From: Cupriavidus pauculus
GTDB taxonomy: Bacteria; Pseudomonadota; Gammaproteobacteria; Burkholderiales; Burkholderiaceae
Assembly (NCBI RefSeq): GCF_008693385.1
Contig: NZ_CP044067.1
Coordinates: forward strand, 2,585,501 to 2,649,500
Reading direction: 5' to 3'
Length of the DNA stretch: 64,000 nt
The notes below the pieces were generated by a model. That model had not been told where the DNA came from, ran no database searches, and was given only the letters and a program-made list of their open reading frames with translations. Positions 17,265-31,382 of this stretch are shown here, in pieces (the stretch's first letter is position 1; every line of letters starts with the position of its first letter). A program made the position numbers and the translations under genes.

Positions 17265-18317
17265 TCAATCCACCTTCGCGCCGGACTGCTCGACGATGGG
17301 CTTCCACTTCCGATAGTCCGAATCCACGAGCTCGGCGAACGCCTTCGGCGTCATGAGCTTCGCCTCGGCGCCCTGTTCGTGGATCGCATGAATGACGTCG
17401 GGGTTGGCCAGCACCTTGTTGATCTCGGTGGCCAGGCGGTCCACGACGCTGGCCGGCGTTTTCGCGGGCGCGAAGATGCCGTACCAGGTGCTGACATCCA
17501 CGTCCTTGTAGCCGCTTTCGGCGACGGTCGGCACGTTCGGCAGCGACGTGCTGCGGGTGGCCGACGTCACGGCCAGTACGCGCAGCTTGCCGGCCTTGAC
17601 CTGTGCCAGCGCCGAGGGCACCGAGGCGACCATCAGGTCGACGTTGCCGGCCATCGCGTCCATCATCGCGGCATTCGAGCCCTTGTACGGCACGTGCAGC
17701 AGCTTGATGCCGGCCGCGTGGCTGAAGATCTCCGCCGCGAGGTGAATCGTCGTGCCATTGCCGGGCGAGCCATAGCGGACCGACTCCGGATGCGCCTTCG
17801 CGGCCGCGACCACATCGGCCAGCGTCTTGAAGCGCGAGTTCGCCGACGTGACGATGCAGATCGGCGTGTAGGCAACGTGGCTGATGGCGATGAGGTCGCG
17901 CGCCGGCACATACGACACCGACTTGTAGAGCCATGGCGCCACCACGAGATTGTCCTTCTGGCCCATGACCAGTTCGTAGCCGGTGGGCGCCGCGCGCACG
18001 ATCTCGGCAATGCCGAGCGTGCCGCCCGCGCCGGGCTTGTTGTCGGGCACGAACGTCCATTTGGTGCTCTGCGCGACCTGGTTGGCCACGAGGCGCGCGA
18101 GGATATCGGTGCCGCCGCCCGGCGGGAACGGAATGACGAGCCGGATCGGCTTGGCAGGCCAGTTGTCCTGCGCCAGCGCGGGAAAGCCGCTCGCCATCGC
18201 GGCCGAGGCCAGCGCGCCTTTCAGCAGGGCGCGCCTGGAGGTATTGACGTCGGGGGACGCGGGCAGGGCGGTCTCGCTGTGCAGCGAGCCGGAACGATGG
18301 GCGGGAATTCGGGGCAT
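17265..18317 (-). CDS. Bug-family (TctC-type) receptor 3, predicted Tat export signal
   Basis: A 350-residue receptor with the family blocks WPAKPIRLVIPFPPGGGTDILAR, DNKPGAGGTLG, YGSPGNGTTIHLAAEIF and HVPYKGSNA. Unlike the other Bug proteins here, its leader has a long polar N-region (about 25 residues) and the twin-arginine sequence TSRRALLKGALASAAM, ending at ALAQ near residue 50. This predicts export as a folded protein by Tat rather than Sec. No enzyme gene is attached; it lies between a MOSC gene and an IclR gene. Ligand unknown. Confidence 0.88.
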   Translation of the reverse strand: MPRIPAHRSGSLHSETALPASPDVNTSRRALLKGALASAAMASGFPALAQDNWPAKPIRLVIPFPPGGGTDILARLVANQVAQSTKWTFVPDNKPGAGGTLGIAEIVRAAPTGYELVMGQKDNLVVAPWLYKSVSYVPARDLIAISHVAYTPICIVTSANSRFKTLADVVAAAKAHPESVRYGSPGNGTTIHLAAEIFSHAAGIKLLHVPYKGSNAAMMDAMAGNVDLMVASVPSALAQVKAGKLRVLAVTSATRSTSLPNVPTVAESGYKDVDVSTWYGIFAPAKTPASVVDRLATEINKVLANPDVIHAIHEQGAEAKLMTPKAFAELVDSDYRKWKPIVEQSGAKVD

Positions 18318-18414: not shown

Positions 18415-19224
18415 CTAGCCGCCCTGCATCGCGCGCACGTCGGCCTCGATCCGCTGGACCGTCTCCAGCAGCAGCTTCGCCAGGCTTTCGATCCGCGCGT
18501 TCTGCATCCGCGACGCCACAGCGGAGATGCTGATGGCCGCCGCGGCCGACTGCTCGTACGGCGCGTGCACGGGCACCGCGACGGTCCGTACCGTCGGCAC
18601 TTCCAGCACGCGATTGACGAGGTACCCGCGCGTGCGCACCTGCTTCACCTTGTCCCACATCACACGTTCCGAGTAGTTCGGATATCCCTCGCTCACCTTT
18701 GTCTCGTTCGACAGGCAGATGCGCAGGATCTCGTCGTCGGGCAGCGTGCTGAGAATGGCCACGTTGCCGCCGCCGATATTAAGCGGACGCGGCCGGCCCA
18801 CCTCGAGCACGAACGCGCGGATCGGGAACGACCCTTCCTCGCGATCCACGCACACGCCGTTGAACCCCGACCTGACCGTCAGAAAGACGGTGTCTCCCGA
18901 CGCCTCCGCCAGCGCCTTGATATGCGGGTGGCACACGTCCCGCAGCTGAAAGCGCGGCGCCGCCGCGAGACCCATCTCGTAGAGGCTGCTGCCGAGGTAA
19001 TAGCGCTTGGACGCCGGATGCTGCGTCACCAGTTGTTCCGCCACCAGTCCCTGCAGGATCCGATGCGCGGTCGATCGCTCGAGCCCCGCTGCGCGATAGA
19101 TGTCGGCGAGCCGCATGCCCGTGCGGTTGTGCGCCGCAATCAGGCGAAGGATGAACGCGGCGCGCTGGATCGTCTGCGTGCCGCTGACGGCGACGCTGCC
19201 GTCCGCGAAGTCTTCTCTTTTCAT
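18415..19224 (-). CDS. IclR-family regulator, predicted controller of the CoA-transferase operon
   Basis: A 269-residue IclR protein. The winged helix (TQTIQRAAFILRLIAAH through STAHRILQGLVAEQLV) covers about residues 15-75 and an effector domain follows. The start is the ATG at 19222-19224 (MKREDF), which removes an unlikely 30-residue upstream extension. It is divergent from a catabolic operon beginning at 19361. A perfect 17-bp repeat flanks the divergent promoter: one copy just upstream of this start, the other over the CoA-transferase start. That arrangement fits autoregulation plus operon control. Confidence 0.9.
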   Translation of the reverse strand: MKREDFADGSVAVSGTQTIQRAAFILRLIAAHNRTGMRLADIYRAAGLERSTAHRILQGLVAEQLVTQHPASKRYYLGSSLYEMGLAAAPRFQLRDVCHPHIKALAEASGDTVFLTVRSGFNGVCVDREEGSFPIRAFVLEVGRPRPLNIGGGNVAILSTLPDDEILRICLSNETKVSEGYPNYSERVMWDKVKQVRTRGYLVNRVLEVPTVRTVAVPVHAPYEQSAAAAISISAVASRMQNARIESLAKLLLETVQRIEADVRAMQGG

Positions 19225-19225
19225 G

Positions 19226-19242
19226 ATCCCAATATATGGAAC
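19226..19242 (+). promoter_or_regulatory. Candidate IclR operator, copy 1
   Basis: The 17-mer ATCCCAATATATGGAAC occurs here and again, identical, at 19351-19367. It contains an imperfect dyad TCCCA-ATATA-TGGAA, close to the TTCCA/TGGAA-type half-sites described for IclR family sites. This copy is immediately upstream of the IclR start codon, where binding would block its own expression. Confidence 0.65.
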
Positions 19243-19350
19243 AACCGTCGTTGACGCTGGCGACCGGGGATTCGTAACATTCTTAGCCATCGAAACCGTG
19301 ATTATCCACCGCAAACACGATGTGGCGATGAAATCGGATCGGCAAGGAAA

Positions 19351-19367
19351 ATCCCAATATATGGAAC
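19351..19367 (+). promoter_or_regulatory. Candidate IclR operator, copy 2
   Basis: This is the second identical copy of ATCCCAATATATGGAAC, 125 bases from the first. Its ATG at 19361-19363 is the likely start codon of the first CoA transferase, so bound protein would cover the translation start region of the operon mRNA's template. Confidence 0.65.
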
Positions 19368-20620
19368 TACATTACAAATCGGGCGCGGCGCTGGCGGGCA
19401 TCAGGGTGCTCGACATGGGCGCGGCGCTCGGCAACTACTGCGCGAAGCTCTTCGCCGACCTGGGTGCCGACGTCGTGCTGGTCGAGCCGGCCGGCGGCAC
19501 GCGCACCCGCGCCATGGCACCGTTTCTCGAAGGCCGGACCGATGCCGAGGCGAGTCTCTACTTCCAGTACAACAACACGAACAAGCGCAGCATCGGCCTC
19601 GACCTCGATACGGCGCAAGGCAAGGCGCTGTTCCGCCAGCTGGTCGCCGATACCGATCTGCTGATCGAATGCGCGGTGCCCGGCGAGATGGATGCGCTCG
19701 GGCTGGGATACGCGACGCTGCGCGCTTGGAATCCGCGCCTGGTGATGACGAGCATCACGCCGTTCGGCCAGACTGGACCCTATGCCGGGTGGAAGGGCGA
19801 GGACCTGGTGGCGATGGCGATGGGCGGGATGATGTCGCTGGGCGGCTACGTCGATAGCCCGCCCATGGTGCCGTTCGGCTACCAGGGCATCGCGGCCGCC
19901 AATCTTTTCGCCGCCGTGGCATCGCTCGCGGCGCTCCATGAGGCCGAGGCGAGCGGCGCGGGCCAGTATATCGATGTCTCGATGCAGGAGTGCATCGTCA
20001 TGGGGATGGAGAACGCGGTGCAGTTCTTCGACCTCGAAGGCACGATCCGGGGCCGGACCGCGGGCCGGCAGCGCGAGGCGGGCAGCGGCGTCTTCCGTTG
20101 CAAGGATGGCTATATCTATCTGATGGCCGCCGGCGTGGGCGCCAATCGGTTCTGGGGCAACACGGTCGAATGGCTCGCGGAGGAGGGCATCGAAGGCGTC
20201 GAGGCCCTGCGCGACGAACGGTGGTCGAACCGCGACTACCTGAGCACGAAGGAGGCCAAGGAGACGTTCGCGCGCGTCTTCAACGGTTTCGCGCTCCGAT
20301 ACACGAAGGCCGAGCTCTATCAGCGCGGTCAGGCGCGCCGCATTCCCATCGCCCCCGTCAGCACGCCCGCGGACGTGCTCGACAGCGAGCAGCTCGCGGC
20401 GCGCGGCTTCTTCCTCGATGTCGGCCCCGAAGCGTTCGGCGAGGGCGCGTTCACGACCGCGGGCAAATTCCCCGGCGCACCTTACCGGTTCGGCGCGACC
20501 CCCTGGCGGCTGGAGCGCCTGGCGCCGCGGCTGGGTCAGCATACGGCGGAGATCCTGTCGGGGCTCGGCATTTCCGGACCCGCGCAGGCGGCGCTGTTCG
20601 ATGCGGGAGTCGTGCAATGA
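19361..20620 (+). CDS. CaiB/BaiF family III CoA transferase, subunit or paralogue 1
   Basis: A 419-residue family III CoA transferase (LAGIRVLDMGAALGNYCAKLFADLGADVV at the N-terminus). The Asp of GQYIDVSMQE, D205, is at the position of the catalytic carboxylate that becomes an acyl anhydride and CoA thioester in this family. It moves CoA from a donor acyl-CoA to a carboxylic acid. The ATG at 19361 has AAGGA about 10 bases upstream; an in-frame ATG at 19328 would add 11 residues. Its TGA overlaps the next transferase's ATG, so the two may form a heteromer, as BbsE/BbsF do. Confidence 0.9.
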   Translation: MELHYKSGAALAGIRVLDMGAALGNYCAKLFADLGADVVLVEPAGGTRTRAMAPFLEGRTDAEASLYFQYNNTNKRSIGLDLDTAQGKALFRQLVADTDLLIECAVPGEMDALGLGYATLRAWNPRLVMTSITPFGQTGPYAGWKGEDLVAMAMGGMMSLGGYVDSPPMVPFGYQGIAAANLFAAVASLAALHEAEASGAGQYIDVSMQECIVMGMENAVQFFDLEGTIRGRTAGRQREAGSGVFRCKDGYIYLMAAGVGANRFWGNTVEWLAEEGIEGVEALRDERWSNRDYLSTKEAKETFARVFNGFALRYTKAELYQRGQARRIPIAPVSTPADVLDSEQLAARGFFLDVGPEAFGEGAFTTAGKFPGAPYRFGATPWRLERLAPRLGQHTAEILSGLGISGPAQAALFDAGVVQ

Positions 20621-21825
20621 AGAGATTGCTCCAAGGCATTCGCGTCATCGACTTCACGTGGATCGGGGCCGGGTCCTTCACGACGAAGCTGCTCGCCGAC
20701 CTCGGCGCCGACGTCATCAAGATCGAGACCTGCACGCGGCTGGACTCGCTGCGCATCGCGCGTCCCTTCAAGGATGGCGTATCGGGCGTGAACCGCAGCG
20801 GCTACTTCGCGGACCGCAACTCGAGCAAGCGCAGCATCACGGTCAACGCGAAGCATCCCGATGGATTGCAGCTGATCCGGCAACTGATTGCCGATGCCGA
20901 TATCGTGGCCAACAACTTCACGCCCGGCGTCATGGAGAAGATCGGGCTCGGTTATGACGCCGTGCGCGAGATTCGTCCGCGGGTCGTGTACGCGTCGATG
21001 TCCATGCAGGGGACCACTGGCCCCGAGAAGGACTACCTCGGCTACGGCCTGATCATCGGCGCGCTGACCGGCCTGCAGCATCTGACGGGCCTGCCGGACC
21101 GCGAGCCGGCGGGGACCGGGACCAACTATCCCGACCATATTCCCAACCCCACGCACGCGGCGTTCGCGATCCTGGCCGCGCTGCGCCACGCGCGCCGGAC
21201 CGGCGAGGGACAGTTCATCGATATCGCGCAGACCGAGCCGACGCTGGCGCTGATGGGGCCGTGGATCCTGAACAGCGCCTTCAACGGACGTGTCGATGAC
21301 CGTCGCGGCAACACGCATCCCGACATGGCGCCGCACGGGGTCTATCCGTGCGATGGCGAGGACCGCTGGATCGCCATCGCGGTGGCCGACGATGCGCAAT
21401 GGCTGTCGCTCCGCGCCGCGCTGGACCTGCCGGAACCCGCGCGGTGGGCGTCCGTCGCGGGACGCCTCGCGGACCGCGAAGCGATCGATGCCGAGATCGC
21501 CGCGAGATCGCGCAAATGGGATGGACCCGCACTCATGCATGCGTTGCAGGCAGCGGGCATCTCGGCCGGCATCGTCAACAACGCCGCGGACGTACTGACC
21601 ACCGACCCGCAACTGCAGGCGCGCGGGCACTGGGTGACGCTCGACCATCCGGAGATGGGCCCGAGCATCTACAACGCGCCGCCGTTCCGTTTCTCGGATG
21701 CCCACTCGAATCCATCGACGCCCGCGCCGCTGCTGGGGCAGCACACGCGGGAGATCTGCCGCGATCTGCTGGGATTGAGCGATGCCGACGTGGCGCGCCT
21801 GATCGACAGCGGCGCACTCGCATAA
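20617..21825 (+). CDS. CaiB/BaiF family III CoA transferase, subunit or paralogue 2
   Basis: A 402-residue family III CoA transferase. The N-terminus LLQGIRVIDFTWIGAGSFTTKLLADLGADVIKIE and the active-site region GEGQFIDIAQTEP (D202) are intact. It is only distantly similar to its neighbour, and the two are joined by an ATGA overlap, which favours a two-subunit enzyme over a recent duplication. The likely role is activation of the imported acid, with succinyl-CoA or a product CoA ester as donor; this is inference from the operon. Confidence 0.9.
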   Translation: MKRLLQGIRVIDFTWIGAGSFTTKLLADLGADVIKIETCTRLDSLRIARPFKDGVSGVNRSGYFADRNSSKRSITVNAKHPDGLQLIRQLIADADIVANNFTPGVMEKIGLGYDAVREIRPRVVYASMSMQGTTGPEKDYLGYGLIIGALTGLQHLTGLPDREPAGTGTNYPDHIPNPTHAAFAILAALRHARRTGEGQFIDIAQTEPTLALMGPWILNSAFNGRVDDRRGNTHPDMAPHGVYPCDGEDRWIAIAVADDAQWLSLRAALDLPEPARWASVAGRLADREAIDAEIAARSRKWDGPALMHALQAAGISAGIVNNAADVLTTDPQLQARGHWVTLDHPEMGPSIYNAPPFRFSDAHSNPSTPAPLLGQHTREICRDLLGLSDADVARLIDSGALA

Positions 21826-21845
21826 GCACAAGACAGGGAGACACC

Positions 21846-22622
21846 ATGAGCGTCCTGATCGACGTTGCCGACAACGTGGCGACGATCACACTGAACCGGC
21901 CGGAAGCGATGAACGCGATCGATCCGGACATGCGCGCGGAACTCGACGAGACCTGGCGGCGCATCCATGCGGACGATTCGATTCGCGTGGCCGTGCTGAC
22001 GGGCGCCGGCGAGAAGGCGTTCTGCACGGGCTCGGACCTGAAGAAGACGATGCCGCCGAAAGACAGCTTTGCCTCGACGACGTTCGGGCGCGCGAAGTCG
22101 GACCACCTGCTGGCGGGCCTGACCACGGACAAGCCGCTGATCTGCGCGATCAACGGCTTTGCGATGGGCGGCGGACTCGAACTGGCGCTCGCCTGCGACA
22201 TCCGCATCGCCTCCGACAACGCGCAGTTCGCGCTGTCGGAAGTGCGCATCGGCAGCATTCCGGGCGCGGGCGGCACGCAGCGCCTGCCGCGCGCCGTCGG
22301 CGCGTCCAACGCGATGCTGATGCTGCTGACGGGCGACCGTGTCGATGCGGCCGAGGCACTGCGCATCGGCCTGGTCAGCAAGGTCGTGCCGCAGGCGGAA
22401 CTGCTTGCCACCGCCACGTCGATTGCCCAACGGATTGCACAGAACGCGCCCCTCGCCGTGCGCGCGGTCAAGCGGCTCGTGCAGCAGGGCATGGACATGC
22501 CGCTGCCGGTTGCGATCGACACCGAACGCTATGTCTTCGGGCTCATGCGCGATACCGAGGACCGGATAGAAGGGCGGCGCGCTTTCCAGGAAAAGCGTCC
22601 GCCGCAGTACCACGGAAAATAA
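21846..22622 (+). CDS. Enoyl-CoA hydratase (crotonase family)
   Basis: A 258-residue crotonase. Both catalytic glutamates of true hydratases are present: E112 in MGGGLELALACD and E132 in ALSEVRIGSIPGAGGTQRL, 20 residues apart as in rat mitochondrial hydratase (E144/E164). It should add water across the 2,3 double bond made by the acyl-CoA dehydrogenase of the same operon, giving a 3-hydroxyacyl-CoA. It starts 20 bases after the second CoA transferase behind an AGGGAG site. Confidence 0.92.
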   Translation: MSVLIDVADNVATITLNRPEAMNAIDPDMRAELDETWRRIHADDSIRVAVLTGAGEKAFCTGSDLKKTMPPKDSFASTTFGRAKSDHLLAGLTTDKPLICAINGFAMGGGLELALACDIRIASDNAQFALSEVRIGSIPGAGGTQRLPRAVGASNAMLMLLTGDRVDAAEALRIGLVSKVVPQAELLATATSIAQRIAQNAPLAVRAVKRLVQQGMDMPLPVAIDTERYVFGLMRDTEDRIEGRRAFQEKRPPQYHGK

Positions 22623-22635
22623 GGAGGAGGGTGCA

Positions 22636-23778
22636 ATGAGTTTGTCACGAAAGATCGCCATCGCCGGGGTCGGTGCTTCCGCGCAGGGACGGCTGCCCGG
22701 ATCGACGCCGATCACGCTCGCCACGGACGCGTTCAAGCGCGCGCTCGACGACGCGGGTTTGAAGAAGTCCGATATCGATGGCCTGCTGACGATGCCGGGC
22801 ACGACGTCGCCGGAGGCCTCGCTCAACTACCTGCGCCTCGGCGAGACGCTGGGGATCGACCCCCAGTACACGGGCAGCATGACGCTGGGCGGCGGCACGG
22901 CCGGCGCGCTGGTGCAGATGGCCGCCGCGGCCATTCATGCAGGCCTTGCCACGACGGTCGCGTGCGTGTTCGGCGATACCGCCAAGACGGGCGGCTCGAA
23001 GTTCAGCCGCGCCTCCGGCTGGGGCGATTCGTGGGGCATCTGGGGCATGTTCGCGGCGGCCGCCAACAGCGCCATCGCCGCCAGTCGGCATATGGCGCTG
23101 TATGGCACGACGAGCCGTCACCTTGGCGAGGTGGCGGTTGCATGCCGGCGCCATGCCTCGATGAATCCCAACGCCGTCATGCGCGAGCCGATCACGATCG
23201 AGGATCACCAGAATTCGCGGTTCGTGGTCGAGCCGTTCCACCTGCTCGACTGCTGCCTGATCAGCGATGGCGGCGTCTGCATCATCGTCACGTCGGCGGA
23301 GCGGGCCAGGCATCTGAAGCAGCCGCCGGTGGTGATTGCCGGCATGGGGCAGGCCTACACCACGCAGAACATGGAGCGCGAGGACTGGTGGTACGTGCCG
23401 CATCAGAAGGATGCGCTCAAGCGGGCTTATGCGATGGCCGGCGTCGGTCCGAAGGACATCGACGTCGCGCAGCTTTACGACAACTTCACGATGAGCGTGC
23501 TGCTGTGGCTCGAACACGCGGGCTTCTGCGGCGTGGGCGAGGCCGGTCCGTTCGTGGAGGGCGGGCGCATCCAGCTGGGTGGCGAACTGCCGGTGAACAC
23601 GGCGGGCGGCAATCTTTCCGAGTCGTATATGGAGGGGTGGCTGCATATCGTCGAAGGGGTGCGGCAGATTCGCGGCGAATGCGGCGAGCGCCAGGTGGCG
23701 GGCGCGGAGACGTGCCTGGTGACGGGCCGCGGCATGACGCTGAACTGCTCGAACGCAATGATCCTGCAGCAGGGCTGA
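22636..23778 (+). CDS. Thiolase-superfamily protein lacking thiolase cysteines; candidate retro-aldolase
   Basis: A 380-residue thiolase-fold protein of the SCP-x/Ltp2 type. Where thiolases have the nucleophilic Cys, the sequence reads SMTLGGGTAGALV (about residues 81-93), and the C-terminal CxG cysteine and GHP histidine are also absent. In the latter region it has NTAGGNLSESYMEGW (Y331), and LYDNF (Y281) precedes it. Ltp2, the steroid side-chain aldolase, likewise lost the Cys, uses tyrosines and works with a DUF35 protein. A DUF35 gene follows here after 11 bases. Retro-aldol cleavage of a 3-hydroxyacyl-CoA is therefore likely; this is inference. Confidence 0.82.
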   Translation: MSLSRKIAIAGVGASAQGRLPGSTPITLATDAFKRALDDAGLKKSDIDGLLTMPGTTSPEASLNYLRLGETLGIDPQYTGSMTLGGGTAGALVQMAAAAIHAGLATTVACVFGDTAKTGGSKFSRASGWGDSWGIWGMFAAAANSAIAASRHMALYGTTSRHLGEVAVACRRHASMNPNAVMREPITIEDHQNSRFVVEPFHLLDCCLISDGGVCIIVTSAERARHLKQPPVVIAGMGQAYTTQNMEREDWWYVPHQKDALKRAYAMAGVGPKDIDVAQLYDNFTMSVLLWLEHAGFCGVGEAGPFVEGGRIQLGGELPVNTAGGNLSESYMEGWLHIVEGVRQIRGECGERQVAGAETCLVTGRGMTLNCSNAMILQQG

Positions 23779-23789
23779 GACGGAGAACG

Positions 23790-24215
23790 ATGATCATGAC
23801 CGATTACAACAAGCCCCTGCCCGTGCTGGGCGACGACAACCGCCCGTTCTGGGAAGCCGCGCGCCGCGAAGAGCTGCGCATGCAGCAGTGCCTGGACTGC
23901 GGGCATATCCGCTATCCGATCAATCACGTCTGTCCGCAGTGCCTGTCCGAACGCGCCGACTGGCGGCGCCTGTCGGGCCGCGGCACCGTGTTCTCCTACA
24001 TCGTCTTCCACCAGGTCTATCACGCGGGCTTTGCGCAGGACGTGCCTTACAACGTCGCGATGATCCAGCTCGAAGAGGGCCCGCGCATGATCAGCAACGT
24101 GGTCGGCGTGCCCAACGACGCCGTCAAGGTCGGCGATGCGGTGACCGTCACGTTCGACAAGGTCACGGAAGAGATCACGATCCCGCGCTTCACGCCCGCC
24201 GGCAAGCCGGCATAA
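23790..24215 (+). CDS. DUF35 zinc-ribbon/OB-fold protein, partner of the thiolase-like protein
   Basis: A 141-residue protein with a rubredoxin-like zinc ribbon (C34-x2-C37 and C48-x2-C51, in QQCLDCGH and HVCPQCLS) followed by an OB-fold (GRGTVFSYIVFHQVYHAGF onward). Such small proteins bind thiolase-fold enzymes and complete their acyl-CoA site, as BbsA does for BbsB and ChsH2-DUF35 for Ltp2. GGAG lies 5 bases before the ATG at 23790; a second ATG two codons later is an alternative. Its position directly after the thiolase-like gene supports a complex. Confidence 0.9.
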   Translation: MIMTDYNKPLPVLGDDNRPFWEAARREELRMQQCLDCGHIRYPINHVCPQCLSERADWRRLSGRGTVFSYIVFHQVYHAGFAQDVPYNVAMIQLEEGPRMISNVVGVPNDAVKVGDAVTVTFDKVTEEITIPRFTPAGKPA

Positions 24216-24237
24216 CAGACACTGGGAACACGGCAAC

Positions 24238-25425
24238 ATGGATTTCGAATTACCAGAAGACACGCGCATGGTGCGGGACACCGTTTCCCGCTTCGTACGC
24301 AACGAACTGATCCCGCATGAAGCGCTGATCATCCGCCGCGAGGCGGAGCGCGGCTTCACCGACACGCCGCTGATTCCGCCGGAACTCGATGCGAAGCTGC
24401 AGCACACGGCGCGCGAGATCGGCCTGTGGGGCATCGACGTGCCGGAGGAATACGGCGGGCAGGAGTTCGGCATGCTGGCCAAGTGCGTCGTCATCGAGGA
24501 GCTCAAGCACAGCATCGTGCCGTTCGTGCTGCCACCGGAGAGCCCGAATCTCTATCTGCTCAGGGAGCTCTGCGTCGGCTCGCAGATCGATCGGTACCTG
24601 CTGCCGTACGCAAGGGGCGAGAAGAAGAGCTGCATCGCGCTGACGGAGCCGGGCGCCGGTTCCGATGCGGGCGCCATCAAGACGCGCGCCGAACGACGGA
24701 ACGGCAAATGGGTGATCAACGGCACGAAGATCTTTATCAGCAACGCCCGCCGTGCCGACTTCATGATCGTGCTCGCGGTGACCGATCCGTCCAGGGGTGC
24801 CCATGGCGGCATGTCCGCGTTCCTCGTGGACAAGGGCACGCCGGGCCTGACGGTGCCGACGGGCTATCCGATGATCGGTGAGTACCATCCGTACGAGGTC
24901 GTGTTCGACAACGTCGAGGTCGGCGACGAGCAGGTGCTGGGCGAGATCGGCACGGCGTTCAAGCCGCTGCAGAAGCGGCTCGGGGTGCGGCGCCTCGACA
25001 TTGCATCACGGTGTCTGGGGCTGGCGAGCCGGTGCATCGAGATGATGATCGAGCAAGCCAATACGCGCACGACGTTCGGCGCGCCGCTGGCCGATCGGCA
25101 GACCATCCAGAACTGGATCGCGGACAGCTTCCAGGAGATGGAGATGGTGCGCTGGCTCGTCTACCGGCTGGCATGGCGCATCGATCGCGGCGACACCGAC
25201 TTCCGGCGCGATGGCGCGATTGTCAAGATCCAGTCCACGGAGATGATCGGGCGCGTCGCGGATCGCGCGATCCAGCTGTTCGGCGGCATGGGCGTGTCCA
25301 AGGAACTGCCGCTGGAGTACATCGCCCGGATGGCGCGCGTGCTGCGCATCGTCGAGGGGCCGAGCGAGGTGCACCGCTGGGTCGTCGCGCGCGATCTGCT
25401 CAAGAGCGGGCTGCCGTCCAGCTGA
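24238..25425 (+). CDS. Acyl-CoA dehydrogenase
   Basis: A 395-residue flavin-dependent acyl-CoA dehydrogenase with the usual domain order: N-terminal helices (1-130), beta domain with CIALTEPGAGSDAGAIKTRA, and C-terminal helices with TRTTFGAPLADRQ and LFGGMGVSKELP. The catalytic Glu is in VEGPSEVHR at about residue 373. It would introduce a 2,3 double bond into the acyl-CoA made by the CoA transferases, passing electrons to ETF. It starts 22 bases after DUF35 and ends 9 bases before the alcohol-dehydrogenase relative. Confidence 0.92.
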   Translation: MDFELPEDTRMVRDTVSRFVRNELIPHEALIIRREAERGFTDTPLIPPELDAKLQHTAREIGLWGIDVPEEYGGQEFGMLAKCVVIEELKHSIVPFVLPPESPNLYLLRELCVGSQIDRYLLPYARGEKKSCIALTEPGAGSDAGAIKTRAERRNGKWVINGTKIFISNARRADFMIVLAVTDPSRGAHGGMSAFLVDKGTPGLTVPTGYPMIGEYHPYEVVFDNVEVGDEQVLGEIGTAFKPLQKRLGVRRLDIASRCLGLASRCIEMMIEQANTRTTFGAPLADRQTIQNWIADSFQEMEMVRWLVYRLAWRIDRGDTDFRRDGAIVKIQSTEMIGRVADRAIQLFGGMGVSKELPLEYIARMARVLRIVEGPSEVHRWVVARDLLKSGLPSS

Positions 25426-25434
25426 GGAGGCGCC

Positions 25435-26631
25435 ATGTACGAGTTCGACGCCGTGCAGCGGCCCGTGCGCATCCGGTCCGGCCTCGATGCGCTGGATGCA
25501 CTGCCGCGCGAGCTGGACCGGCTCGGTGCCTCGCGCGCGCTCGTGGTGTGCGGCCGCAGCGTCGCGGAGCGGTCGGGCCTGATCGAACGCCTCCGCGCGC
25601 TGCTCGGCGACAGCCTTGCCGGCGTCTACGGGGGCCTCCGCAAGGACGCCCCCGTGAGCGATATCGAGGCCGCGGCGGCGATGGCGTCGGAGCGGCGCGC
25701 CGACGTCATTCTCGCGATCGGCGCTGGCAGCGTGATCAAGGCCACGCGCGTCATCGCGATGTGTCTCGGCGAGCGCGCGCCGCTGCGGACGCTCTGCACG
25801 CAGTATGGCGAAGGCGCGCCGCCCGTCAGTCCGAAGCTGCTGGCGCCGAAGCTGCCCATCGTCAATATCCTGACGGCGGCCACGTCCGCGCAGAACCGGG
25901 GCGGCAGCGCGCTGAAGGATGACGCCACCGGGGAGCGGCTCGAGTTCTTCGATCCGAAGACGCGCCCCGCCGTCATCTTCTGGGATGCGGCGGCACTGAT
26001 GACGGCACCGCCCCACCTCGTGCGTTCGACGGGTTTCTCGGTGTACTGGCGGGCGCTGATGAACCTCGGCACGATGGAGCGCGCCAATCCGCTCGTCGAG
26101 GGCGATCGCAGGCAGGCCTACGAACTGGCCCGCCGCGCGCTGCGCCGCGCGGTGGAGACCGAAGACTACGGTCCACGCATCGACCTGTGCGCGGCGGCAT
26201 TGCTGCAGAACCGCGACGAGGACGATGGCGGGCGGCCGTTCGACGCGCATCGGATTGCGCGCGTCGTGTATGCGCTGGCGGCACCGATCTTTCACCGGTT
26301 CGAGGCCATCGATCAGGCCAGCACGCATGCGGCGCTCACGCCCGCGGCCATCCGCGTGCACGGTCACCTCTGCCCGGACGTGATCCATGTGATTGGGCAA
26401 ACCACAGGTTGCGGGGATGACGGGGACGTGGAGGCGGTCGCGCAAGCCGTGTCAGACCATTTTGCATCGCTCGGCATGCCCACGCGGCTGCGCGATCTGG
26501 GGTTGCCGCGGGCCGAGCTGCCGCATCTGCTCGCGCACGCGGGGCGCAATTTCAATGCGGACCGCGCGCGCGAGTTCATCGACGCGCGGGAACGAACAAG
26601 ACTGGCGAATACGCTGGACATGGCGTGGTAG
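25435..26631 (+). CDS. Iron-alcohol-dehydrogenase / maleylacetate-reductase relative with lost metal ligands
   Basis: A 398-residue protein whose N-terminal half has the dehydroquinate-synthase-like fold of the iron-alcohol dehydrogenase family (YEFDAVQRPVRIRSGLDAL and SRALVVCGRS). Key positions have diverged: the nucleotide loop GGGSxxD reads GAGSVIK, and the metal site, usually G-x-D-A-x-x-H, reads STGFSVYWRAL, so the Asp and first His are gone. A C-terminal THAALTPAAIRVHGHLC stretch keeps several histidines. It may use no metal or be a different enzyme. It is cotranscribed with the acyl-CoA pathway; its role is unknown. Confidence 0.75.
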   Translation: MYEFDAVQRPVRIRSGLDALDALPRELDRLGASRALVVCGRSVAERSGLIERLRALLGDSLAGVYGGLRKDAPVSDIEAAAAMASERRADVILAIGAGSVIKATRVIAMCLGERAPLRTLCTQYGEGAPPVSPKLLAPKLPIVNILTAATSAQNRGGSALKDDATGERLEFFDPKTRPAVIFWDAAALMTAPPHLVRSTGFSVYWRALMNLGTMERANPLVEGDRRQAYELARRALRRAVETEDYGPRIDLCAAALLQNRDEDDGGRPFDAHRIARVVYALAAPIFHRFEAIDQASTHAALTPAAIRVHGHLCPDVIHVIGQTTGCGDDGDVEAVAQAVSDHFASLGMPTRLRDLGLPRAELPHLLAHAGRNFNADRAREFIDARERTRLANTLDMAW

Positions 26632-26668: not shown

Positions 26669-27664
26669 ATGAGACATACCCCAACCCACGGCTTCCGCCG
26701 CCTGGCATCGATCGCGATGCTGGTCGCGCTCGAAAGCCTGCCGGCCACGGCCAGCGCGCAGGGCGACAGCTTCCCCAGCAAGCCCATTCGCGTGGTGGTG
26801 CCTTACCCCGCCGGCGCCAGCACCGACCTGCTCGCCCGTGTAGTCGGCCAGTCGATGTCGAAGACGCTGGGCCAGCCTGTGATCGTCGAGAACCGGCCCG
26901 GCGCGGGCGGCATCATTGCCGCGGAGTTCACGGCGCGCTCGGCGCCGGACGGCTACACGATCATGATGACCTCCGCCGGGATCCTCACGAACAATCCCAG
27001 CATGTACAAGAAGCTGCCGTACGACGCGGCGAAGGATTTCGCGCCGATCACCATCGCGGCCGAATTGCCGCTGGTGGTCGTGGTCAACAAGTCGTTTGCG
27101 GCGAACAACTTTCAGGAGTTGCTGGCGATGACGAGGAAGGAGCCCGGCAAGGTGACCTACGGGTCGGCAGGCACCGGCACCTCGCAGCATCTGGCGGGTG
27201 AACTGCTCAAGTCGATGGCGAAGATCGACATGCTGCACGTGCCGTACAAGGGCGGCAGTCCCGCCATGGCGGATCTGCTGGCGGGACAGATTCCGGTCAT
27301 GTTCGTGCAGACGGCGTCCGCATTGCCGCAGATGCGCAATGGCAAGGTACGCGCGCTCGCCGTCGGCAGTCCCCAGCGCAATCCGCTGATGCCGGATGTG
27401 CCGACGATCGCGGAGTCCGGCGTGCCGGGGTACGACTCGGACACGTGGTACGGCTATATCGCGCCTGCGGGCGTGCCGCAGCCCATTCTTGCCAGGCTGC
27501 ATAGCGCGATCGTCGCCGGCCTGAAGGAGAACAAGGACAAGCTGACCAACGACGGCTATGTGGTCGATGGCGGCACGCCGCAGGCGATGGCGGCCGCGAT
27601 CAAGGCGGACACGGCCAAGTGGGGCGGCATCATCCGCGCCGCGGGTATCACGGCGGATCAGTAA
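26669..27664 (+). CDS. Bug-family (TctC-type) extracytoplasmic solute receptor 4
   Basis: A 331-residue receptor with a Sec signal peptide ending near ASA/QG (residue 30) and the blocks FPSKPIRVVVPYPAGASTD, VENRPGAGGII, YGSAGTGTSQHLAGELL and HVPYKGGS. I chose the ATG at 26669, nine bases after GAGGAG; an in-frame ATG three codons upstream would overlap that site. As last gene of the CoA-transferase operon it probably delivers that pathway's substrate. Its 3' end overlaps the convergent prpF-like gene by 17 bases. Confidence 0.9.
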   Translation: MRHTPTHGFRRLASIAMLVALESLPATASAQGDSFPSKPIRVVVPYPAGASTDLLARVVGQSMSKTLGQPVIVENRPGAGGIIAAEFTARSAPDGYTIMMTSAGILTNNPSMYKKLPYDAAKDFAPITIAAELPLVVVVNKSFAANNFQELLAMTRKEPGKVTYGSAGTGTSQHLAGELLKSMAKIDMLHVPYKGGSPAMADLLAGQIPVMFVQTASALPQMRNGKVRALAVGSPQRNPLMPDVPTIAESGVPGYDSDTWYGYIAPAGVPQPILARLHSAIVAGLKENKDKLTNDGYVVDGGTPQAMAAAIKADTAKWGGIIRAAGITADQ

Positions 27665-28829
27665 CGGCCGTGGGCATGTCGATGCCTTGCCTGAGGTAGG
27701 CGACGCCATCGGCTAGCCGGCGGGCGGTGCGCTGCACGACCATGCGGTCGACGGACACGCCCTCGCGCGTCGCATCGACCGCCGCCTCCACGAATGCGAT
27801 GCCCGAGGGGTGGCCAAAGCCAAGGCGGCGTGTCGATCGCCGTGCATCCTCCCCCAGTAACCGGTAAGGAATCGTGCCCGGCACGCGGCACGCCACACCG
27901 GTCGTCGCCGTGAGCGTGCCAGCAAGCGTCTTGCTCGCGGACCCCGACGCATACTGCCGCACGACGAGGTCGAACGTATGCGCGGGCACGCGCTCTCCCT
28001 GCGTGCAGGTCAGATAATCGGTCGCGCCGCGCAGCACGATCAGCATCGGCGTGGACGGTGCCTTGCGCGCATTCCAGTAGTCCTGCAGGCCGCATCGATA
28101 TGCGACCACCTTGCGGACCGCGTCCATGCGGCGCTTGAGCGCGGCATCCGCATCGATCTCGTCCGGACTTTCCAGTCCCGTCATATCGAGCGCCGCGTGA
28201 TCGATATAGACCGCGAGGTTCGCCCCATCGACGATCGACACCTCGACCTGCCCGACCTCTGGTACGTCGAGCCAGTCGCTGACGTTGCCCGTCGGGAACA
28301 GCGTGCCCGTGATGGCGCCCGTTGCCGCCGAGAAGTCCAGGTCGATGGGCGCGCCGGTCCCCGGTACGCCGCCGATGGCGAAATCGCCTTCCCAGACGGG
28401 CTCGCCATCGCGCACGGGCACTACGACGCGGATCACGCGGTCCGTGTTGACGTTGTGCACGCGCACTTCGGTCAGACCTTCCACGGGCGCGACGAAACCC
28501 TCCTCGATCGCATACACGCCGACCGCGGCGGTCAGGTTGCCGCAATTGAGGTTGTAATCGACCTCCGCCTGGACCGTGCCCACCTGACCGAACAGATACG
28601 TCACGTCCGTGTCGGGCCGCACGGGCGGACCGATGATCGCCGCCTTGCTCGTCAGCTTGTCGGCACCGCCGAGTCCGTCGATCTGCCTGCGATCGGGACT
28701 GCCGAACAGGTCGAGCAGCAACGCCGTCAGCCGTTCGCGGTCGGCGGGAACGTGATCGGCGTGCAGGAAGACGCCCTTGCTGGTACCGCCGCGCATCAGC
28801 GCGAATGGCAGCTTGTGTCGCATGGTCAT
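27648..28829 (-). CDS. PrpF-family isomerase
   Basis: A 393-residue PrpF-type protein (diaminopimelate-epimerase-like fold). The expected catalytic pair appears intact: Lys62 in TSKAAII and Cys96 in YNLNCGNLT, with the 34-residue spacing of characterised PrpF (K73/C107). Relatives isomerise 2-methylaconitate or tautomerise 4-oxalomesaconate by proton shift. The ATG at 28829 is used; an ATG two codons later is also possible, and a GTG overlapping the receptor stop (28841) is less likely. It is last in a six-gene leftward operon with MmgE/PrpD, suggesting a di- or tricarboxylate pathway. Confidence 0.85.
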   Translation of the reverse strand: MTMRHKLPFALMRGGTSKGVFLHADHVPADRERLTALLLDLFGSPDRRQIDGLGGADKLTSKAAIIGPPVRPDTDVTYLFGQVGTVQAEVDYNLNCGNLTAAVGVYAIEEGFVAPVEGLTEVRVHNVNTDRVIRVVVPVRDGEPVWEGDFAIGGVPGTGAPIDLDFSAATGAITGTLFPTGNVSDWLDVPEVGQVEVSIVDGANLAVYIDHAALDMTGLESPDEIDADAALKRRMDAVRKVVAYRCGLQDYWNARKAPSTPMLIVLRGATDYLTCTQGERVPAHTFDLVVRQYASGSASKTLAGTLTATTGVACRVPGTIPYRLLGEDARRSTRRLGFGHPSGIAFVEAAVDATREGVSVDRMVVQRTARRLADGVAYLRQGIDMPTAVTDPP

Positions 28830-28837
28830 GGCCCCGG

Positions 28838-29827
28838 TCACTGGTCGAGAGAAATATTCTTCTGCCGGATCAGGTCCGTCCAGACGCGCCTGTCGCTGTC
28901 GATCAGCGACTGATAGGCCGCGGGATCGGACGATGCCGGCGGCACGAACCCCTGCGCGATAAAGGTGCCGCGGAACTCCGGATCGGCCAGCGCCTTGTTG
29001 GCGGCTGCGGCAAGCTGCTCGACGATGGGGCGCGGCACCGCCTTCGGCACCGACAGGCCATAGCGCACCTGCACGACAAAGTCCTTGTAGCCGGACTCCG
29101 CGAACGTGGGCACGTCGGGCAGCGTGGGCATGCGTTCCCGCGCGGCGAGCGCGATGGGCCGCAGCTTGCCCGCGCGGATCTGCGACAGGTTGGAACCGAC
29201 GACGCCGAACAGCGCCTGGATCTCGTTGCCGACCATGGCCGCGACGGCGGGCGCGCCACCCTTGTACGGCACGTGCGTCATCCTGATGCCCGCCTGCTGG
29301 CTGAAGAGCTCGCCGGCCAGGTGGAACGTGCCGCCATTGCCCGTGGAACCGTAATTGATCTCGCCCGGATGCGCCTTGGCGTAGGCGACGAATTCCTTCA
29401 GGTCGCGCACGGGCAGGCTGCTGTTCACCACGAGCACCAGCGGCAGGTCGCTGAGCAGCGCGACGGGCGCGAGGTCCTTGTCGGGGTTGTAGCTGAGGTT
29501 GGTATAGAGCAGCGGATTCAGCACGCTGCTGGAGTCCGTCGACAGCAGCATGGTGTAGCCGTTCGGCGCGGCCCGCGCCACGGTGGTGGCGCCGATGACG
29601 CCATTCGCGCCCGGCTTGTTCTCGATGACGATCGTCGTGCCGAGCGCCTTGCCCATCAGCGCGCCGACGCGCCGCGCGATGGTATCGGTGGTAGCGCCCG
29701 GGGCGTAGGGCACCACGAGCGTGATCGGCTTATCCGGAAAGCCGGCGCCATGGGCCAGCCCCTGCATGCCGGGCAGGATCGATAGCGCGGCCAGAAGCCC
29801 GCGCATGCGGCGCGACGAGTGGTGCAT
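28838..29827 (-). CDS. Bug-family (TctC-type) extracytoplasmic solute receptor 5
   Basis: A 329-residue receptor: signal peptide ending near AHG/AG (about residue 27), then FPDKPITLVVPYAPGATTD, IENKPGANGVIG, YGSTGNGGTFHLAGELF and HVPYKGGAPA. GGAGAC lies 6 bases before the ATG. It sits between the MmgE/PrpD gene (43 bases upstream) and the PrpF gene (8 bases downstream), so it is an internal gene of the operon and the second receptor in it. Why one operon carries two receptors is unclear; they may bind different ligands. Confidence 0.9.
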   Translation of the reverse strand: MHHSSRRMRGLLAALSILPGMQGLAHGAGFPDKPITLVVPYAPGATTDTIARRVGALMGKALGTTIVIENKPGANGVIGATTVARAAPNGYTMLLSTDSSSVLNPLLYTNLSYNPDKDLAPVALLSDLPLVLVVNSSLPVRDLKEFVAYAKAHPGEINYGSTGNGGTFHLAGELFSQQAGIRMTHVPYKGGAPAVAAMVGNEIQALFGVVGSNLSQIRAGKLRPIALAARERMPTLPDVPTFAESGYKDFVVQVRYGLSVPKAVPRPIVEQLAAAANKALADPEFRGTFIAQGFVPPASSDPAAYQSLIDSDRRVWTDLIRQKNISLDQ

Positions 29828-29870: not shown

Positions 29871-31271
29871 TCAGTCGCCGGTCAGCAGATCCCGCACCGC
29901 GTAGCGGTCCAGCGCCATGGCGCGCGCGAAGGTGTTGCCCGCAGTGCTTCCCGCGTCGGCTTTGGCACCGCCCCATGCGAGGCAGTCGTCGAACTTGCTC
30001 TTGAGTTCGGCCGCGGAAAGCGGCAGCGCCGCGGACCCCCGCAGGCTATCGACCCGGCGCGAGAGCCGGCGTCCGTTGCGAAGCGTGAGGTCGATATGTG
30101 TCCAGCGCGGAAACACCTGCCCATCGGCGGACGACTGTCCGGTGACGCGCGATAGCGCGGCCTGGGCGGCCGGGCGTTGCACTGCGTCATCGGTGAAGCT
30201 CGCCAGCGTGACATGGCCGTCGAGCAGTGCCGCGACCATTGCGTATTCGAGGCTGAACTTCGCCTCGAGCCCCGTTTGGGGCCGATGATGGATGAGTGGG
30301 GTCAGCGCGCCGGCGCTGGTGAAGATGGCGACGGTCTCGATATCGCCGAGCGTGAGGGCGTGTTCGGCGCGGAGGTCGAGCATGCCGTCGATCGCGCGAT
30401 GCGTGGCATAGCAGAGGGGATACTTCTTGACCTCGATGCCGCTGCGCAGCAATTCGAGCGTGCCATGCCCAAGCGTTGCCAGCTCGTCGTCGAGGCTGGC
30501 CTCGTCGGCGTAGAGCGCGGTATAGCCGAACTGGCCGTCGAGCGCGCCGGGCGCGGCGTCGAAGCCTTCCTTCGCCAGCAGGGCCGCGCGGAGGGCCGCG
30601 GCATTGCATTGCCCGGCCTGGAACGACTTTGCATCGGTGCCGAAGTTGGCGCGCGTCCCCGCCGTCTGCGCCACGGCCAGGCCGATGGCATGGACGATGC
30701 CCGGGACATCGAGCTTCAGCAGATGCGCGCAGGCCACGGCGGCGGCAATCGTGCCGATGCTGGACGTGGAATGCCAGCCTTTTGCGTAGTGATGCACCGC
30801 GTAGGCGCGCGAGAGCTTGCAGATGACTTCGAAGCCCACGACGTAGGCCGCCGCGAGGGCCGCGCCGTCCGCATCGAGGGACTCGCCCAACGCCACGAGT
30901 GCAGGCAGCAGCGCGACACTCGGATGGCCGCGCATCGGCGACGTCACGTCGTCGTAGTCGAGCACGTGCGCGGCGACGCCATTGACGAGCGCGGCGAGCT
31001 CCACGGGCAGCCGCTCGCCGTCTCCCCAGCAACGCGCCGAGTTCGCGAGAGACGCGTGCCATGCATCGCCGCCGGCCGCCACGCGCGCATATCGCCGCGC
31101 CTTGACCGCGGGCGGTTCGTTCCGCCCGGCGAGCCCTACGCCATAGGTGTCGATAAACGCCCGGCCGACCGCTTCCAGCAGGCCGGGGTCGAGGTCATGG
31201 GCGCCGAAGCCGCTCGCAAACTCGGCAATGCGCCTCGCCGCCCCGCCAGATACGCGCTCGATAGCGTCCAT
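29871..31271 (-). CDS. MmgE/PrpD-family dehydratase-like protein
   Basis: A 466-residue MmgE/PrpD-family protein; the N-terminal helical domain contains HVLDYDDVTSPMRGHPSVALLPAL and the remainder includes GWHSTSSIGTIAAAVACAHLL. Characterised relatives dehydrate 2-methylcitrate or decarboxylate cis-aconitate, but the family is broad. No Shine-Dalgarno sequence is visible before the ATG; instead a 7-bp inverted repeat, TTGTGAA/TTCACAA (31273-31301), abuts it. It follows the TauD-like gene after 111 bases. With PrpF and a CoA transferase it suggests breakdown of a hydroxylated polycarboxylic acid. Confidence 0.88.
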   Translation of the reverse strand: MDAIERVSGGAARRIAEFASGFGAHDLDPGLLEAVGRAFIDTYGVGLAGRNEPPAVKARRYARVAAGGDAWHASLANSARCWGDGERLPVELAALVNGVAAHVLDYDDVTSPMRGHPSVALLPALVALGESLDADGAALAAAYVVGFEVICKLSRAYAVHHYAKGWHSTSSIGTIAAAVACAHLLKLDVPGIVHAIGLAVAQTAGTRANFGTDAKSFQAGQCNAAALRAALLAKEGFDAAPGALDGQFGYTALYADEASLDDELATLGHGTLELLRSGIEVKKYPLCYATHRAIDGMLDLRAEHALTLGDIETVAIFTSAGALTPLIHHRPQTGLEAKFSLEYAMVAALLDGHVTLASFTDDAVQRPAAQAALSRVTGQSSADGQVFPRWTHIDLTLRNGRRLSRRVDSLRGSAALPLSAAELKSKFDDCLAWGGAKADAGSTAGNTFARAMALDRYAVRDLLTGD

Positions 31272-31382
31272 ATTGTGAAAGCCAGTGGATTGGGTTCACA
31301 AGATGGTAGGGCGATTGTGGGGCGTGGAGGGTCCACATATTGAGATTGCCCCCTCGGGATGTTGCCCTCGGGGGGACGGCCG

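Follow-up and report, generated by a model that had tools for sequence, protein, structure and literature searches.

An operon of the soil-type bacterium Cupriavidus pauculus that probably degrades substituted succinic acids

Gene content of the operon and its flanks

The window analyzed here, a stretch of 64,000 nucleotides from Cupriavidus pauculus (contig NZ_CP044067.1, positions 2,585,501 to 2,649,500; the host genome comprises 7.06 Mb in three contigs), contains an operon that probably serves this soil-type bacterium to degrade substituted succinic acids. For a transporter encoded nearby, the best match with a name comes from Cupriavidus (87% identity). It consists of seven tightly packed genes on the plus strand (19361-26631); a gene for a TctC-type solute-binding protein comes next, the block reaching 27664 (Table 1). 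The Pfam families represented are two CoA-transferases of family III (CaiB1 and CaiB2), a crotonase, Thiolase_C_1, zf-ChsH2/OB_ChsH2_C (the DUF35 protein), an acyl-CoA dehydrogenase, and Fe-ADH. CaiB1 and CaiB2 overlap by 4 bases (ATGA), and the other intergenic gaps in the run from CaiB1 to TctC measure 9 to 37 bp. CaiB1 might instead start at the in-frame ATG at 19328; the start codon of the IclR gene was picked by eye in an open frame that extends to 19314. An earlier reading made from the sequence alone (the sequence-only reading) had recognized the CaiB pair, the hydratase, the thiolase-like protein, DUF35, and the acyl-CoA dehydrogenase, and had stated that a gene for a short-chain dehydrogenase/reductase (SDR) is lacking. 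Gene calls and Pfam agree with this set, and there is no SDR among the Pfam families of the run 19361-26631. The Fe-ADH homologue had gone unmentioned although it lies in the same run, and the unit as delimited then was too small: IclR, MmgE/PrpD, PrpF, and Tct genes also belong to it, either by conservation or through a candidate operator.

Table 1. Features of the operon and its surroundings (positions in the window).
Feature	Position	Strand	Basis
TctC-type solute-binding protein gene	17265-18317	-	PF03401, 253.5 bits
IclR-family regulator gene, divergent from the operon	18415-19224	-	PF01614 and PF09339 over cut-off
17-bp repeat, copy 1, candidate IclR operator	19226-19242	+	exact pair with copy 2
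17-bp repeat, copy 2, overlapping the CaiB1 start codon	19351-19367	+	exact pair with copy 1
CaiB1, BbsEF-type CoA-transferase subunit	19361-20620	+	9fn0_A, 314 bits
CaiB2, BbsEF-type CoA-transferase subunit	20617-21825	+	9fn0_B, 341 bits
Crotonase-family enoyl-CoA hydratase	21846-22622	+	PF00378, 252 bits
Thiolase-fold retro-aldolase candidate, YDNF class	22636-23778	+	Thiolase_C_1, residues, model, tree
DUF35 (ChsH2-type) partner subunit, C4 zinc ribbon	23790-24215	+	PF01796, PF12172
Acyl-CoA dehydrogenase	24238-25425	+	PF00441 and others
Fe-ADH homologue	25435-26631	+	PF00465, 98.6 bits
TctC-type solute-binding protein gene	26669-27664	+	PF03401, 261 bits
PrpF-family isomerase gene	27648-28841	-	PF04303, 344 bits
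TctC-type solute-binding protein gene	28838-29827	-	PF03401, 235 bits
MmgE/PrpD-family gene	29871-31271	-	PF03972, 183.5 bits; PF19305, 100 bits
Degenerate 17-bp repeat, copy 3 (3 mismatches)	31330-31346	-	58 bp before the MmgE start codon

Residues, fold, and relatives of the encoded enzymes

The thiolase-like protein carries the stretch SMTLGGGTAG (residues 81-90), within which Gly85 aligns with the catalytic cysteine of the thiolase 7yvy. Gly85, Y281, D282, N283, F284, and Y331 are invariant in all 47 close relatives (at least 68% identity; the relative in L052, at 60%, was excluded and likewise has YDNF and the second tyrosine). In the alignment with structures from the PDB, Y281 and Y331 fall on the catalytic tyrosines Y294 and Y344 of TcLtp2. 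The predicted model is closest to 6ok1, 4u4e, and 9myr, which are tied, with BbsB and classical thiolases ranking lower; consistently, the NCBIfam models for BbsB and BbsA stayed below their cut-offs (114 versus 750 and 40 versus 250 bits, respectively). In the tree, a sample of window-type proteins formed a separate clade (support 100/100), which is joined with Ltp2, a single row on a long branch, in a group of 22 rows (97/98). C298 is common to the window protein, Ltp2, Sal, and 4u4e and is, thus, not a nucleophile peculiar to the window family. The Ltp2-like sequence and fold, the presence of both tyrosines, the lack of a cysteine nucleophile, and the DUF35 partner strongly suggest that the thiolase-fold protein catalyzes a retro-aldol step. 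A retro-aldolase devoid of catalytic cysteine is what the sequence-only reading had predicted; it had also proposed to check Y281 and Y331 against Ltp2.

The match to known aldolases of this fold is not complete. Like Ltp2, which with its DUF35 partner ChsH2 forms the steroid C3 side-chain aldolase (6ok1), the window protein has glycine for the thiolase cysteine and tyrosines at both catalytic positions; however, the YDHF motif of Ltp2, with the oxyanion-hole histidine, is replaced by YDNF in 47/47 close relatives, and the window-type clade occurs in a CaiB/MmgE setting rather than in a steroid pathway. The bile-acid aldolase Sal-Shy of Comamonas (9myr) differs more: Sal has YDCY with a catalytic cysteine, and glutamine in place of the second tyrosine (PMC12329534), whereas the window protein has YDNF and tyrosine. 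Sal also resides on another branch of the tree, and its DUF35 partner contains a C3H1 zinc finger and is fused to a hydratase. In the window, the DUF35 zinc ribbon comprises four cysteines (C34, C37, C48, and C51), each conserved in 37/37 relatives; its best structure matches are 9myr_B (90 bits) and 6ok1_B (88 bits). In four paralogues encoded by the same genome (L002-L005), the thiolase cysteine is absent too, but they have YDAF or YDSF, and histidine at position 331, a pattern also found in 4u4e-like proteins.

By sequence, the CaiB pair corresponds one to one to the subunits of the enzyme in the record 9fn0, which is named a benzylsuccinate CoA-transferase: CaiB1 scored 314 bits against chain A (next different protein, 140) and CaiB2 341 bits against chain B (next, 211). 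Both proteins, and both chains of 9fn0, align a glutamate where the formyl-CoA-transferase relatives carry aspartate, and this glutamate is kept in 31/34 relatives of CaiB1 and 39/40 of CaiB2. The Bbs likeness of the sequence-only reading is, thus, stronger than could be known from the letters.

For the remaining enzymes, conservation was counted without the window's own copies. The hydratase indeed contains the two glutamates regarded as catalytic in the sequence-only reading, E112 and E132 (GGGLE ... LSE), both Glu in 40/40 relatives; their spacing of 20 matches that of E144/E164 in the rat enzyme. E373 of the acyl-CoA dehydrogenase, at the catalytic-base motif, is Glu in 16/16 relatives. 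In the Fe-ADH homologue, the aspartate and histidine at the metal-ligand positions of the family are replaced (alignment with relatives), as they are in all six relatives of 45-49% identity; the typical GxDAxxH is kept in matches of 25-26% identity and in a paralogue from the same genome.

Conservation of the gene set and its surroundings

Scanning species genomes with exact peptide patterns yielded 73 loci, several of them shortened by contig ends and all with mechanical gene calls. In 48 (L007-L054, termed orthologous), a relative of the thiolase-like protein with 60-85% identity is encoded; the other 25 (L055-L079) are paralogue loci, which stem from other taxa and are, hence, an imperfect control. 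Orthologous loci occur in Proteobacteria, Actinomycetota, Chloroflexota, and one metagenome-assembled genome of Rokuibacteriota. All five core genes (at least 40% identity and at least 80% coverage) were present in 30/48 orthologous loci versus 0/25 paralogue loci. Among 120 relatives of the thiolase-like protein in the matches listed (78-93% identical), the names given are acetyl-CoA acetyltransferase or thiolase. Within the genus, a match at E ≤ 1e-120 was obtained in only one of 60 genomes, the window's own being counted in and being the one, which suggests horizontal gain. The sequence-only reading knew of no described pathway with exactly this set. An identical operon was not found in the literature either, where the papers listed dealt with steroid aldolases, bbs, ibuprofen, and itaconate, although the search was limited to open-licence PubMed Central papers, which makes this absence weak; the operon itself is, given the 30 complete loci, not rare.

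Genes of the MmgE/PrpD family were found in 39/48 orthologous but only 1/25 paralogue loci, and in 28 of the 30 complete ones, across several phyla. PrpF-type genes occurred in 13/48 and IclR-type genes in 22/48 orthologous loci. TctC-type matches amounted to 33/48; 30/48 is the safer figure because the matches in L039, L042, and L049 depend on a group from which the single member checked is not recognized by Pfam. SDR-type genes were present in 9/48 orthologous and 7/25 paralogue loci. The counts for MmgE, PrpF, TctC, and SDR rely on profiles built from the loci themselves, and a chance control covers MmgE only: from the number of MmgE genes per genome, 0.61 of 17 loci would be expected to have such a neighbor, whereas 16 did (L030 being the exception), a figure to be used as a guide only because the 16 genomes were hand-picked among the 48 loci for taxonomic spread. 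These per-genome counts speak against MmgE being a chance neighbor. When neighbor proteins from 13 loci were sorted by Pfam family (103 of 112 tallied), the most frequent families were TctC (12 proteins), MmgE/PrpD (10), and PrpF and IclR (five each); the families with at least two members included neither an SDR nor a citramalyl-CoA-lyase type.

Both domains of the window MmgE/PrpD protein exceed the cut-off (183.5 and 100 versus 32.1 bits), and its closest solved structure is that of iminodisuccinate epimerase (2hp0, 227 bits). MmgE proteins of this type (43-65% identical) are encoded in 13 loci, in most of which CaiB2 adjoins: in L007, L009-L014, and L038, the gene separates CaiB2 from the hydratase, and in L054 it follows CaiB2. 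The host genome contains four other MmgE genes; the three compared are 24-33% identical to that of the window, and the copy in L094 was missed by the gene caller. Elsewhere in the genome (L092; G000 C3:2200500-2211500), an MmgE/PrpD gene is grouped with genes for an acyl-CoA dehydrogenase and an FAS1-type dehydratase-domain protein, which resembles part of the methylsuccinate cluster. As this group is separate, the operon was rejected as a candidate for the canonical itaconate/methylsuccinate cluster.

Two exact copies of a 17-bp repeat are located between the IclR gene and CaiB1. No further copy with up to two mismatches is present in the genome; at three mismatches, four more places were found, one of them before MmgE, compared with six places for the reversed control pattern. 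On sequence alone, this third copy is weak evidence, but its position speaks for it. Sites with at most one mismatch to CCAATATATGGAA were found in 5/73 loci (reversed control: 0 in 1.18 Mb). Those in L009, L030, and L045 lie in the spacer between IclR and CaiB1, and the one in L009 overlaps the CaiB1 start, as in the window; that in L040 lies just beyond the IclR gene on the side facing away from that spacer, and that in L017 has no IclR hit beside it. We regard the repeat as a candidate IclR operator, putatively shared by the operon and MmgE.

Proposed pathway and alternatives

From the observed gene content, residues, fold, and conservation, we infer the following activities, regiochemistry, and products. 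Tct-type binding proteins would aid uptake of the acid, which MmgE/PrpD may epimerize or isomerize in its free form; where present, PrpF may shift or flip a double bond, both roles being those suggested by the families. CaiB1 and CaiB2 would together constitute one BbsEF-like transferase moving CoA from succinyl-CoA to the acid, the acyl-CoA dehydrogenase would generate the enoyl-CoA, and the crotonase would hydrate it to the 3-hydroxyacyl-CoA. The thiolase-fold protein and DUF35 would then cleave the C-C bond, yielding a ketone or aldehyde and an acyl-CoA. By analogy with Ltp2, Y281 would accept the proton of the 3-hydroxyl and Y331 return one to the enolate; N283, which occupies the place of the oxyanion-hole histidine, may assume its role. 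Because a retro-aldol cut would follow hydration directly, oxidation of the alcohol would not be needed. With BbsEF-like regiochemistry, succinyl-CoA would be released and could be the next CoA donor.

Which acid is degraded is suggested by the surroundings. According to PMC12290011, characterized MmgE/PrpD proteins act on 1,4-dicarboxylate backbones substituted at C2/C3, and the family member of the itaconate cluster isomerizes methylsuccinate, its partners being an acyl-CoA dehydrogenase and a CoA transferase. BbsEF activates benzylsuccinate with succinyl-CoA, which Bbs cleavage gives back (PMC10818641). The IclR, MmgE/PrpD, PrpF, and Tct genes make a 2-substituted succinate the probable substrate class, in place of the branched, cyclic, or aryl acids in general that had been envisaged in the sequence-only reading, the retro-aldol cut of which is supported. 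That the whole scheme is a catabolic route for a 2-substituted succinate is slightly favored; succinyl-CoA as the product falls a little short of even chances. Still more tentative is the broadest form of the proposal, namely, a widespread pathway in which a retro-aldol cut replaces Bbs oxidation and thiolysis, succinyl-CoA is regenerated as its own CoA donor, and the aldolases represent a third, non-steroid YDNF class beside Ltp2 and Sal.

Several observations weigh against this interpretation. The gene set varies, an acyl-CoA dehydrogenase being present in 15/48 and Fe-ADH in 4/48 orthologous loci; at the thresholds used, L030 lacks MmgE, and L051 lacks both MmgE and CaiB1. A second subgroup of loci has an MmgE only 34-40% like that of the window, and different neighbors. 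The window MmgE itself lies outside the operon transcript, downstream and on the opposite strand. N283 is without tested precedent, and the chemistry of the YDNF asparagine is putative. Finally, Tct proteins transport many kinds of acid.

A retro-aldol route of the other regiochemistry would, like the itaconate/methylsuccinate cluster, place CoA on the distal carboxyl; the thiolase-fold enzyme would then replace citramalyl-CoA lyase, giving a 2-oxo acid and acetyl-CoA or a homologue. The published methylsuccinate set comprises MmgE, acyl-CoA dehydrogenase, CaiB, and a hydratase (PMC12290011), the tertiary alcohol so formed could not be oxidized, which would explain the missing SDR, and possible users of 2-oxo acids, D-2-hydroxyacid and Ldh_2 dehydrogenases, are encoded in 12/48 and 7/48 loci, respectively (families confirmed on one member each). 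We nevertheless regard this as unlikely, given the two-subunit, BbsEF-like CaiB pair, where the transferase of that cluster is a single subunit, and the separate group in L092. Somewhat less likely still, the five core genes could be a general retro-aldol module, with MmgE, PrpF, and Tct as accessories for some acids, so that the substrate in the window need not be a succinate derivative. The neighbors do vary, including old-yellow-enzyme-type and fused CaiB genes (L035 and L044), branched-chain-type ABC transporters, and several MmgE types; yet MmgE/PrpD accompanies nearly all complete loci in several phyla, and the transferase pair has BbsEF identity. That the thiolase-fold protein is a thiolase, or a Claisen-type or acyl-transfer enzyme using another cysteine or none, is very unlikely in view of Gly85, of YDNF and Y331, where BbsB has HDAF, of the shared C298, and of the NCBIfam scores.

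Compared with known systems, what is new about the proposed succinate pathway is the combination; the parts themselves are known. The bbs operon of anaerobic toluene degradation shares the BbsEF-like pair, the acyl-CoA dehydrogenase, the hydratase, and a thiolase-fold protein with DUF35, but it has BbsCD dehydrogenase and BbsAB, whereas the seven-gene run in the window lacks BbsCD, its thiolase-fold protein is aldolase-like, and MmgE/PrpD, PrpF, Tct, and IclR genes accompany it instead. Most hosts of window-type loci, moreover, do not appear to be known for anaerobic degradation of toluene. The itaconate/methylsuccinate cluster shares an MmgE/PrpD isomerase, an acyl-CoA dehydrogenase, CaiB, a hydratase, and C-C cleavage of a hydroxyacyl-CoA; in place of its itaconyl-CoA hydratase type and citramalyl-CoA lyase, the window has a crotonase and a putative thiolase-fold aldolase, besides a two-subunit transferase (PMC12290011). 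Genes for citramalyl-CoA lyase and itaconyl-CoA hydratase are absent, according to Pfam, both among ten proteins of the operon region and among the PrpF, TctC, and MmgE proteins beyond it. IpfD/IpfE of ibuprofen degradation is a thiolase-annotated, non-steroid pair also called a retro-aldolase; as described in PMC9195938, it works downstream of a CoA ligase and a dioxygenase, takes a dioxygenated aryl-CoA as substrate, and releases propionyl-CoA. If the proposal holds, steroid side-chain aldolase chemistry would also serve ordinary acid catabolism in several phyla, a conserved family for which acetyl-CoA acetyltransferase and thiolase are so far the only names would receive a function, and MmgE/PrpD proteins another setting; the operon's lack of need for an alcohol dehydrogenase would be explained, and an enzyme cutting, or in reverse forming, C-C bonds of dicarboxylates would be at hand.

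Some loci depart from the common layout. In the alphaproteobacterial L035, L044, and L048, a fused double CaiB and an old-yellow-enzyme-type gene are present and Tct genes are not, perhaps reflecting another substrate. The actinomycete loci L039, L042, and L049 contain multiple MmgE-type genes and also encode TctA and a protein of the citrate-synthase type that carries a helix-turn-helix domain at its N terminus, the Pfam check of these neighbor families resting on L042.

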